Shown here in pieces: positions 7,486 through 27,770 of a DNA stretch of 28,026 nucleotides. The translations under genes and the position numbers were made by a program. The notes beneath the pieces are model-generated. The model searched no databases, was not told where the DNA came from, and worked only from the letters and a program-made list of their open reading frames with translations. Origin of the DNA: a virus; the IMG/VR virus record IMGVR_UViG_3300017956_000094, positions 1 to 28,026 of that record. One strand, given 5' to 3'. Within the stretch, counting starts at the first letter, position 1, and the number at the start of each line of letters is the position of its first letter.

Positions 7486-7672
7486 CGTCTTTTTTCTTTA
7501 GGCTCCAATTACCATTGTCTAATTCTTCCCAGATAAGTGTATCGCCAATGTCCCAACCTACTTGGGCTAATGCTTCTGGGGGGAGTTCTAAATATAATTC
7601 TTTTGTCTTGCCATCTTCTTGAACTTGAACAGTCCAAGAATTTTCACCGGTCTGTATTGGATTTCGTATCAT
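7478..7672 (-). CDS. AbrB/MazE-like swapped-hairpin protein
   Basis: This 64-residue protein has the pattern WTVQVQEDGKTKELYLELPPEALAQVGWDIGDTLIWEEL..GNWSLKK. LPPEALxxxGWxxGDxLxW is typical of AbrB/MazE-type DNA-binding swapped-hairpin domains. Start ATG 7672 is preferred over an upstream GTG because AAAGG lies nine bases before it. It lies just after the tmRNA and begins the run of six small genes. A transcription-regulator or antitoxin-like role is possible, but no toxin partner is seen next to it. Confidence 0.6.
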   Translation of the reverse strand: MIRNPIQTGENSWTVQVQEDGKTKELYLELPPEALAQVGWDIGDTLIWEELDNGNWSLKKKDDV

Positions 7673-7692
7673 TGCTGTCACCTTTGATAATT

Positions 7693-8012
7693 AAAAAGTG
7701 CAACTTTTCTGTTGCTAGGGAAGTTGCCACCCCCGAGTGATTATGCCGCTAGGGCAAAATCCTCAGAAAGACGAACGTCTTTTTGCTCACCGAAGTTTAC
7801 AAAAGAAACGTTGTCCAATGCTTTATCGTTTGCATCTATAACGTTTGCTTGATTTACGGTCATCGCCTACCGGTAACTCCACGTTCTCTAGTACATCAGT
7901 CGATCCCGATCACCCCCTCAAAGCACACTCAGCGAATGTGTTTTAAGTGAATGGTGGAGGTGGGGGGAATTGAACCCCCGTCCTGCCTGTGTTCGATTGG
8001 CTTCATCGTTAC
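7693..8012 (-). ncRNA. ssrA: Circularly permuted (two-piece) tmRNA
   Basis: Transcript order is acceptor piece, spacer, coding piece. The acceptor piece ends with T arm GGGGG-TTCAATT-CCCCC, acceptor strand CACCTCC, then ACCA, with CCA at 7954-7952. A 34-base spacer (7951-7918) can form a small ACAC/GTGT hairpin. The coding piece opens GGGGGTGATCGGGATCGAC at 7917. Its GGGGGTG pairs with CACCTCC (one G-U) to close the tRNA-like acceptor stem. The resume codon is probably GCA at 7833-7831, in the context TAGATGCAAACGA, matching E. coli TAGTCGCAAACGA. The tag begins ANDKALDN, ends SEDFALAA and stops at TAA 7743-7741, about 30 residues. A pseudoknot-capable stem (GCAACTT/AAGTTGC, 7727-7700) and a T5 run follow. 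The outer ends are approximate. tmRNA rescues stalled ribosomes and tags products for proteolysis. Confidence 0.9.
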
Positions 8013-8019
8013 AATACTT

Positions 8020-8048
8020 ATTTAACTACATTTTAACGCACTTGTCAA
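8020..8048 (-). promoter_or_regulatory. Sigma70-type promoter for tmRNA
   Basis: Perfect TTGACA (8048-8043), 17-base spacer, TTAAAT (8025-8020) on the minus strand. Transcription would start near 8013, just at the 5' end of the acceptor piece. The TTAAATAAG around the -10 also resembles a late octamer. Confidence 0.65.
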
Positions 8049-26046: not shown

Positions 26047-26120
26047 GCGGGTGTAGCATAATGGTAATGCACTGGCCTTCCAAGCCATGTATGGGAGTTC
26101 GATTCTCCTCACCCGCTCCA
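26047..26120 (+). tRNA. tRNA-Gly (anticodon TCC)
   Basis: The full cloverleaf can be drawn: acceptor GCGGGTG/CACCCGC, D arm with GGTAAT, anticodon stem TGGC/GCCA with loop CTTCCAA (anticodon TCC), and T loop TTCGATT. CCA is encoded at 26118-26120. It reads GGA, a codon favoured by AT-rich genes. Confidence 0.93.
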
Positions 26121-26126
26121 AACAAT

Positions 26127-26200
26127 GCAGGAATGGTGTAGTGGTAACACGACAGTCTCCAAAACTGTAAACTGAGGTTCGATTCCTTGTTCCTGTGCCA
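26127..26200 (+). tRNA. tRNA-Trp (anticodon CCA)
   Basis: Acceptor GCAGGAA/TTCCTGT with an end G-U, D stem GTGT/ACAC, anticodon stem ACAGT/ACTGT with loop CTCCAAA (anticodon CCA), and T loop TTCGATT with two wobble pairs in the T stem. CCA is encoded. It is six bases after tRNA-Gly and read from the same promoter. Confidence 0.9.
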
Positions 26201-26253: not shown

Positions 26254-27036
26254 ATGGGTATTTCTGCATTTAATTTTAAAGAGCGTAGTCTTTTATTTGC
26301 TAGACTGGCGCAAATAGCATATTCTAATATAGATGTTGCTAAGAAACAAGCAAAGAAGTTAGGGTTTACTACAGTAGAGTTTTACGAAAAAGACGGAGCA
26401 CAAGCATATCGCTTTATGAATAAAGAGGATCTTGTTATTGCTTGTAGAGGAACAGAACCAACAGAGTTTAACGATATTAAAGCAGATGCAAATGCCCTTC
26501 CTGTTATTGCTGAAACTATTTCAAGAGTACACAGAGGATTTAAAGCAGAAGTAGATGAACTATGGCCAATGGTGCTAGAAGATTTACAACGTAAAGCCAA
26601 TGACAAGAAAAAGATTTGGTTCTGTGGACACTCACTTGGAGCGGCAATGGCTACTATTATGTCAAGTCGTTGCCACTTATACCCAGACGTAGAACCTGTG
26701 CAGGAACTTTACACATACGGATCACCAAGAGTAGGCTGGCCTGGATATGTAAAGAGTCTTGGTGTAACACACCATCGTTGGGTTAACAATAACGACATTG
26801 TAACAAGAGTTCCACTTGCTATTATGGGTTACAAGCATCACGGTGAACAACACTATCTAAATGCATACGGCAATGTTCGTAAACCTACAGGGTGGCAACT
26901 TGTTAAAGATCGATTCCGTGGAATGTGGATGGGGTTAAAGCAAGGCAAGATTGATAACTTTTCAGATCACAGTATGGTAAACTATTGTAACTATCTTGAA
27001 ATGTACGTTTCAGGAAAAGAAAACAGTCAAAGTTAA
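26254..27036 (+). CDS. Class 3 lipase
   Basis: This 260-residue alpha/beta-hydrolase has the nucleophile elbow G125-H-S127-L-G129 after WFC, with VIACRGTEPTEFNDIKADAN upstream (typical RGT...W/D element), YTYGSPRVG after the elbow, acid VNNNDIVTRVP (D181) and catalytic H239 in FSDHSMVNY. The triad S127-D181-H239 and RGTE/YGSPRVG are hallmarks of lipase class 3 (PF01764). There is no signal peptide. A late octamer and AGGAGGG site precede it, suggesting late expression. It might attack host membrane lipids near lysis or during egress, which is inference. Its last four bases overlap the convergent dehydrogenase gene. Confidence 0.85.
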   Translation: MGISAFNFKERSLLFARLAQIAYSNIDVAKKQAKKLGFTTVEFYEKDGAQAYRFMNKEDLVIACRGTEPTEFNDIKADANALPVIAETISRVHRGFKAEVDELWPMVLEDLQRKANDKKKIWFCGHSLGAAMATIMSSRCHLYPDVEPVQELYTYGSPRVGWPGYVKSLGVTHHRWVNNNDIVTRVPLAIMGYKHHGEQHYLNAYGNVRKPTGWQLVKDRFRGMWMGLKQGKIDNFSDHSMVNYCNYLEMYVSGKENSQS

Positions 27037-27770
27037 TCTTTACGAATACGTTTATTATATTCAACTGCTTCTTTTAAAATAGACAGGTCAACATCATCAC
27101 GTTGGCCTGTTTTTATGAGTGCATTTATATCTTTAGGAAAACAATGTCCACCAAAGCCACGTTCTTCTGTGATGAAACTATGACTATCTCCTATACGTTC
27201 GTCCATTGTTGTATAGTGTGCTACAGCGTCATATTCGATGTCTAATGCATCACATAGATCATACATCTGATTAAAGAAACTAACCTTTAGTGCAAGGAAA
27301 CTATTGCGAACATACTTAGCAAGTATAAGTTCTCTAGGTTCTGCAATTTCGATGCCTACTCCAAACACATTTCCCCAGAAGCAGGTACTGGTACCACCGA
27401 TTAACATTAGATCCATTTTTGCTAGATCTTCTACTGCTGTTTTTGCCCTAAGAAACTCTGGAGAGAAGTTTAACATACGATTAGGAAATGTGTCTACCAA
27501 CATATCCCAACCTTCTACCGAGATTGTGCTTTTGATTAGAATAGGTACATCAGGAGATGATTCAATTACTTCGTAAACATTTTCCATTTCACAACTGCCA
27601 TCAGGTCTTTCAGGCGTTGAAACACAAACAATAACTGCATCTGTGTCTTGCGGAATTGGTTTATTGTATTCTGGCCAAGCAGGATCTACAATAGTAATGT
27701 CATGCTTGTCTTTTAATACTTCTCGATGTGCTTTGCCTACAAAGCCATACCCTGCAATAGTAATTTTCAT
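27033..27770 (-). CDS. Short UDP-glucose/GDP-mannose dehydrogenase-like protein
   Basis: The sequence reads MKITIAGYGFVGKAHREVL with the G-x-G-x-x-G dinucleotide fold (7-12), VCVSTPERPDGS, LIKSTISVEG, LNFSPEFLRA, KYVRNSFLALKVSFFNQ and GFGGHCFPKDINAL with catalytic Cys210. This is the NAD-binding plus central domain of nucleotide-sugar dehydrogenases. It stops at 245 residues, before the C-terminal UDP-sugar-binding domain of the about 400-residue enzymes. A shortened, perhaps specialised, enzyme is likely; it could contribute to surface-sugar change. It lies eight bases after iscU in the same direction. Confidence 0.82.
   Translation of the reverse strand: MKITIAGYGFVGKAHREVLKDKHDITIVDPAWPEYNKPIPQDTDAVIVCVSTPERPDGSCEMENVYEVIESSPDVPILIKSTISVEGWDMLVDTFPNRMLNFSPEFLRAKTAVEDLAKMDLMLIGGTSTCFWGNVFGVGIEIAEPRELILAKYVRNSFLALKVSFFNQMYDLCDALDIEYDAVAHYTTMDERIGDSHSFITEERGFGGHCFPKDINALIKTGQRDDVDLSILKEAVEYNKRIRKD

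Follow-up and report, generated by a model that had tools for sequence, protein, structure and literature searches.

In the reading that we prefer (probability roughly 0.58), the viral contig analysed here, whose whole stretch of 28,026 bases we call the window, carries a working phage two-piece tmRNA with a tag that would join a normal ClpXP/ClpAP end to a second, selected protein-recognition segment. The tag is about twice the usual length. What looks new is this long and conserved tag; two-piece tmRNAs of phages are themselves already known.

The minus strand of the window holds, at 8048-7697, a complete circularly permuted tmRNA gene of the alphaproteobacterial type. ARAGORN calls a single permuted tmRNA (7650-8046, minus strand) with the tag ANDKALDNVSFVNFGEQKDVRLSEDFALAA, and two Rfam models match above their gathering scores, namely RF04321 (tmRNA_permuted; 8012-7741, 104.1 bits, gathering score 47, E 1.4e-19) and RF01849 (alpha_tmRNA; 8052-7697, 74.1 bits, gathering score 50, E 1.2e-18). 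The match is far above chance level. The initial annotation had described a phage-carried permuted ssrA gene in which an acceptor piece ending in CCA, a 34-base spacer and a coding piece follow one another, with a 7-bp acceptor pairing across the pieces and a TTGACA promoter of its own, and had proposed a covariance-model search as a check; it gave no strand. The record is a viral contig, and the two Rfam models, ARAGORN and dissection of the sequence recover each of the named parts:

8048-8020, minus strand: promoter, read from the sequence, with TTGACA at 8048-8043, 17 nt, and TTAAAT at 8025-8020
8012-7952, minus strand: acceptor piece of the two-piece tmRNA, from RF04321 and dissection; its 5′ end (8012) is the model boundary, not a mapped end
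7979-7952, minus strand: within the acceptor piece, T-arm (7979-7963), acceptor 3′ strand CACCUCC (7962-7956), A (7955) and CCA (7954-7952)
7951-7918, minus strand: 34-nt intervening sequence from dissection, presumably removed on processing
7917-7911, minus strand: acceptor 5′ strand GGGGGUG, the start of the coding piece, whose third pair is G-U with 7958
7833-7744, minus strand: tag reading frame of 30 codons, with resume codon GCA (7833-7831), followed by stop codon UAA (7743-7741)
7821-7768, minus strand: in-frame cassette, codons 5-22, ALDNVSFVNFGEQKDVRL, delimited by the alignment of 15 tags, a codon test and its absence from short-tag relatives
7812-7792, minus strand: conserved cassette core NVSFVNF
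7761-7739, minus strand: helix 5 round the tag end and stop codon, GAUUUUGCC / GGCAUAAUC, from covariation in 23 sequences
7733-7700, minus strand: H-type 3′ pseudoknot, 7733-7730 with 7720-7717 and 7727-7721 with 7706-7700
7681-7478, minus strand: gene downstream of the tmRNA, PHROG 661, of unknown function

The acceptor stem pairs 7917-7911 with 7962-7956 across both pieces, includes a G3-U70 pair and is followed by an encoded CCA, and the tag frame opens at the resume codon and ends in ALAA before the stop. Over 397 nt, four near-identical contigs show just two differences from the window, both of which fall in the 34-nt spacer.

The same architecture is maintained among related phages. Forty-two phage loci were chosen for dissection, and all but L225, which was not dissected, gave an acceptor stem; in these 41 loci all seven pairs are formed and the third pair is G-U, the dissection having taken the best-pairing candidate without using the G-U pair as a criterion. 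Seven different stem sequences occur among the 41, all of them fully paired, which indicates that the acceptor stem covaries. Across 23 sequences, 97.3% of cells are paired in helix 5, with compensatory changes at one of its eight pairs, and 100% in the 3′ pseudoknot, with one compensatory pair per stem. Jointly the two elements have 98.9% of cells paired and 11 cells changed on both sides, against a shuffled mean of 2.4, and this cell count and the covariation score were reached by none of 500 shuffles. Two of the five measures in this test were not beyond the shuffles: the number of pairs changed on both sides (3 of 19) was reached by 56 of 500, and that of pair types by 74 of 500. Because 18 of the 23 sequences were recruited by a 19-base pattern inside the pseudoknot, the constancy of the pseudoknot is partly due to the selection of sequences; L465, L467 and L469, which were found by a tag pattern instead, contain a compensatory change in a pseudoknot stem.

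Of 27 distinct upstream regions, 15, counting that of the window, have a TTGAC-N15-19-TATAAAT-like site 66-70 nt ahead of the CCA end, and L236 has one at 92 nt. No such site was found in 11 of the 27, among them those of the long-tag loci L218, L222, L230 and L231. A T4-type late promoter (TATAAATA) was set aside, as a sigma-70 promoter is simpler given the TTGACA 17 nt upstream. Of 32 stretches matching an 18-mer of the resume region, 28 were neither called as tmRNA nor preceded by GGGGGTG within 120 bases. The T-loops of these RNAs are unusual: the canonical TTC is missing in 39 of the 41 dissected loci (for example L035, L221, L223 and L218), where the loop reads GGCAGTA (12 loci), GGCGGTA (10), TGCAATT (7), TGCGATT (4), TGCGATA (3), TGCGAAT (2) or TGCAACT (1), and TTCAATT is present only in the window and L008. 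Near base 540 of L228, two 3′ pseudoknot-like CCTAG(C/T)AACAGAA elements follow one another, as if duplicated.

The window's tag, ANDK-ALDNVSFVNFGEQKDVRL-SEDFALAA, has 30 residues, and related tags have 29-30, against a usual length of 8-15. This long-tag family occurs in 49 viral contigs besides the window and includes 20 distinct reading frames and, counting the window's own, 15 distinct peptides of 29-30 residues. A search of viral contigs with a 3′-pseudoknot pattern, which is blind to the tag, yielded 58 stretches, and 39 of these carry a family tag of 29-30 residues (35 others and four near-identical to the window). A tag-pattern search returned 36 stretches, 11 of them new; the complete long tag is present in 10 of the 11, and the remaining one (L472) is cut off within the tag. 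Among 80 viral loci related through the downstream gene, motif reading found the window's tag in 4, tags of 10-14 residues in 22 and no tag in 54, some of which are short or differently built. The tag of another phage, L008, has 25 residues, and its kinship is doubtful. The long tags share a core, NV[ST]FV[DN]F or NVFSFV[DN]F, and end mostly in EDFALAA. Residues F11, V12 and F14 are shared without exception by the 15 distinct tags, 10 of the loci behind this count having been found by a pattern that requires part of the core. Behind the core the sequence is variable, with a length difference of one residue, and this part may be a spacer. AlphaFold did not fold the tag with confidence (mean pLDDT 61.1).

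The extra residues can be set against close relatives that do without them. In L237, L248 and L258 the RNA is almost the same as the window's and the tags are short: ANDNFASEDFALAA in L237 (14 residues, with a pseudoknot sequence common to it and the window), ANDNFANEDFALAA in L248 and ANDNFANEEFALAA in L258. The existence of near-identical RNAs with 14-residue tags that lack the block identifies it as an in-frame cassette of about 15-18 codons, positioned between ANDN and EDFALAA. When a backbone tree was built without the cassette, long and short tags interleaved; the window adjoins the short-tag L237, and L265 groups with L218 and L236 although its tag and that of the window are 90% identical. 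This tree comes from short sequences and was read by its topology only. The interleaving and the placement of L265 make repeated gain, loss or exchange of the cassette probable.

A resume codon in a particular sequence context and a tag of about 30 residues had both been proposed from the reading frame, and the relatives bear them out. Measured from TCGAC in the tRNA-like part, the resume codon lies 69-73 nt away in long-tag relatives and 66-82 nt away in short-tag ones, the nearest of which (L237, L248 and L258) have 71-72 nt. The resume codon thus stands at the same position whether the cassette is there or not, and this comparison backs the tag length in addition to the reading of the frame. 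Furthermore, the cassette evolves as coding sequence. Codons 5-14 in group A (10 sequences) have S 22 and N 8, with omega 0.13 in the tag frame (p 1.3e-7), compared with 0.99 and 5.6 when the two other frames are read. The same codons in group B, of 7 sequences, have S 5 and N 2, again with omega 0.13 (p 0.013), this core comprising seven changes. For the whole insert (18 sequences) omega is 0.43 (p 1e-5), and for the tag ends it is 0.09. In these p-values each change on a minimum spanning tree counts as an independent event, and L008 was left out of the tests. Since the distance to the resume codon is kept and the codons evolve as codons, we conclude from these comparisons that the cassette is translated and that its core is held at the peptide level.

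Two other views of the cassette must be weighed against this evidence. ARAGORN called a tmRNA in 9 of 11 loci given to it and in 5 of the 11 read a shorter tag, AVNEDFALAA, so that software alone leaves the tag length unsettled. These calls would fit a resume codon placed after the cassette, which would then be untranslated and leave a tag of the usual length. Selection in the codon frame within the cassette argues against such an arrangement, as does the upstream GCA, which stands where short-tag relatives have their resume codon and in the same context; moreover, the window has no GCN codon between codon 5 and codon 27. We consider an untranslated cassette highly unlikely, and the AVNEDFALAA reading is probably wrong. 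Alternatively, the cassette might be kept mainly as an RNA element, either a hairpin or a protein site, with the peptide as a by-product. In RNAalifold, two short helices join the resume-codon region to codons 4-5 and to codons 11-12 (63/64 and 75/76 cells paired in 16 sequences, the latter pairing appearing in the run without the empty row L220), and the window alone folds mildly better than shuffles (z -1.94, 7/200; z -1.44, 19/200). However, no pair in these helices has changed on both sides, and constraint on the insert is seen in the tag frame but in neither frame 1 nor frame 2. An explanation based mainly on RNA therefore appears improbable, while some RNA role might exist beside the peptide.

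Comparison with host tags, which the initial annotation had suggested, did not reveal a bacterial source for the peptide. Alphaproteobacterial two-piece tmRNAs (RF01849) resemble the window's in gene order, tRNA-like domain, resume codon and hydrophobic tag end, whereas their sampled tags lack the cassette and are most commonly 12 residues long (59 of 122 ARAGORN tags). This sample of 143 loci is enriched in small genomes and top-scoring matches, and 21 of the 143 have no ARAGORN call. The tag had been called far longer than the usual 8-15 residues, which is true of its 30 residues, but such a length alone is not unprecedented, given that 19 of the 122 host tags have 20-32 residues, with sequences unlike the phage family. 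These tags, in small-genome alphaproteobacteria such as L336, L338 and L366, are known from ARAGORN readings only, and many of them repeat ANxN or are rich in Arg. A separate long-tag case is formed by L336, L338, L350, L356, L366, L372, L374 and L375, with ARAGORN tags of 29-32 residues, several of which have repeated ANxN or are rich in Arg/Lys. In 22 small genomes tested for rhodopsin, 14 gave a match and are plausibly marine; their tags have 9-12 residues, and the four with 9 residues come closest to SAR11 in size and base composition. A degenerate pattern that covers 29-residue NV[ST]FV[DN]F tags, and neither the window's 30-residue tag nor group B, matched 0 of 385 alphaproteobacterial genomes; as a positive control it matched 31 of 474 loci, all from viral contigs. 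The idea that the phage tag copies a host tag is not borne out in the 122 sampled tags or in the 385 genomes as searched with this pattern, where no host with the same tag was found.

In the preferred reading, established tmRNA biology would supply most of the steps. Host RNase P and tRNase Z would cut the precursor into two pieces, and host AlaRS would charge the RNA through its alanine identity pair G3-U70. We assume that, in infected cells, host SmpB brings it to ribosomes that have stalled on broken mRNAs, as SmpB was detected in none of 16 phage records, many of which are fragments. The stalled chain would receive Ala and the 30-residue tag, whose ALAA end would make it a substrate of ClpXP or ClpAP, the proteases to which tag ends of the ALAA type are reported to lead (PMC3985003). 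The selected extra stretch suggests a second signal: the cassette may be a linear recognition segment bound by some protein, with adaptors of host or phage origin and AAA+ unfoldases, including the ClpA of this phage clade, as candidates, and tagged chains would then be engaged differently from host-tagged ones. That a longer phage tag might steer protease adaptors, as the initial annotation proposed, is compatible with a conserved, selected cassette. A cassette kept by selection in phages and missing in sampled host tags would offer a direct handle on the role of the tmRNA, and its binding partner should reveal the purpose of a phage tmRNA. It would be a case in which a virus alters, rather than copies, the peptide code used in bacterial quality control.

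Other functions for the long tag fit parts of the same evidence. A longer flexible handle for engagement by an AAA+ unfoldase, with no specific binder, would account for the variable post-core segment, which differs even by one residue in length, and for the low-confidence AlphaFold model without a fold; yet the invariance of F11, V12 and F14 in all 15 tags and a core omega of 0.13 go beyond what a spacer needs, and we think this function rather unlikely. A tmRNA that mainly competes for SmpB and so inhibits host trans-translation would have a parallel in mycobacteriophage DS6A, which has a tRNA-like-only form; a DS6A-like RNA is described as inhibiting tmRNA (PMC4131195, PMC11915505). An inhibitor would have no need of a resume codon, tag frame, helix 5 and pseudoknot, all of which are conserved here, and the chance that competition is the main role seems very small. 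A more elaborate form of the preferred reading can be put forward tentatively, as a possibility that we find doubtful: the cassette would be a phage-made second degron or adaptor handle with a dedicated partner, possibly phage ClpA with host ClpP, that re-addresses the rescue waste stream and moves as a module between tmRNA backbones.

Phage ClpA is encoded in two long-tag contigs (G004 and G394), with two GxxGVGKT motifs and an IGF tripeptide that we take to mark a ClpP-binding loop. The G004 copy (C1:22989-25238, L421) has one in-frame TAA close to where the match begins and is perhaps broken or shortened. ClpA was found in just 2 of 13 long-tag records, most of which are short contigs or fragments, and also in short-tag relatives (G399, G409 and G423), in G005 with its 25-residue tag and, without a tmRNA match, in G426 and G427 (both fragments) and isolates W03-W09. 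A pairing of phage ClpA with the long tag was dropped as a main claim, ClpA not being specific to long tags. The cassette motif was absent from 343 predicted proteins of four phage contigs. G004, a relative with the same tmRNA, also has a full-length HSP70 match at 85370-87262 (L424). The entry named Acinetobacter phage MD-2021a (L437, CAKLQF020000008.1) resembles a bacterial chromosome contig, with argC, clpS, clpA and aroF.

Four long-tag contigs share genes: 65 of 78 G393 proteins match the 117-kb relative G004 with a median identity of 61%, and 10 of 47 match for G392, which was compared in part. The DNA polymerase of G004 is 50.8% identical to that of Sinorhizobium phage Phosso and 46.8% to that of Agrobacterium phage Atu_ph07, the nearest isolates, and the window's ribonucleotide reductase is nearest to those of cyanophages and Pelagibacter phage Mosig (~70%). 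We presume the contigs to be marine, judging from their relatives and from sample codes. The permuted form of the tmRNA had been taken to support an alphaproteobacterial host. The type is indeed alphaproteobacterial, but alone it is no proof, as phage Melnitz has a gammaproteobacterial host and an alpha-type tmRNA, according to PMC9004378. The relationship to Phosso and Atu_ph07 adds evidence, and on these sequence comparisons an alphaproteobacterial host is likely.

Among published systems, the same source counts 53 two-piece forms in 133 unique phage tmRNAs (PMC9004378), and a tmRNA database is described as holding 79 phage sequences, with 10 residues as the most frequent tag length (PMC11915505). 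One tmRNA is listed for AP-J-162, a jumbo phage of Sinorhizobium (PMC11242549). Phage tmRNAs with a conserved long tag were not found in open-licence literature searched by title and start of abstract; supplementary tables and the tmRNA database may list such tags. The marine myophages Melnitz and Mosig are like the window in having a phage-borne, permuted tmRNA of alphaproteobacterial type (PMC9004378). The tag of Mosig was read as ANSYAFLNGEDNFALAA, 17 residues against the window's 30. The tmRNAs of both phages are reported with a glutamine riboswitch (PMC9004378), whereas Rfam at gathering scores gives two tmRNA models and two tRNAs in the window and no glutamine riboswitch. Phosso also has a permuted tmRNA, but its tag is short (ANDNVSTKVALAA, 13 residues), and its tmRNA falls among bacterial sequences on the backbone tree.

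Several further genes were noted around these tmRNAs. About 1.3 kb downstream of the long-tag tmRNAs of L467, L468, L473 and L474 there is a cluster of tRNA-Ala, tRNA-Glu and tRNA-Asp. The far end of the window contains adjacent tRNA-Gly(TCC) and tRNA-Trp(CCA) genes (26047-26200, plus strand), a class 3 lipase gene (PF01764; 26254-27036, plus strand), a UDP-glucose/GDP-mannose dehydrogenase gene (27033-27770, minus strand) and a fragment of an IscU/NifU-type iron-sulfur scaffold gene (PF01592; 27779-28024, minus strand). The best bacterial matches of this last fragment are 80-89% identical and, among the 80 matches listed, come mostly from Gammaproteobacteria.
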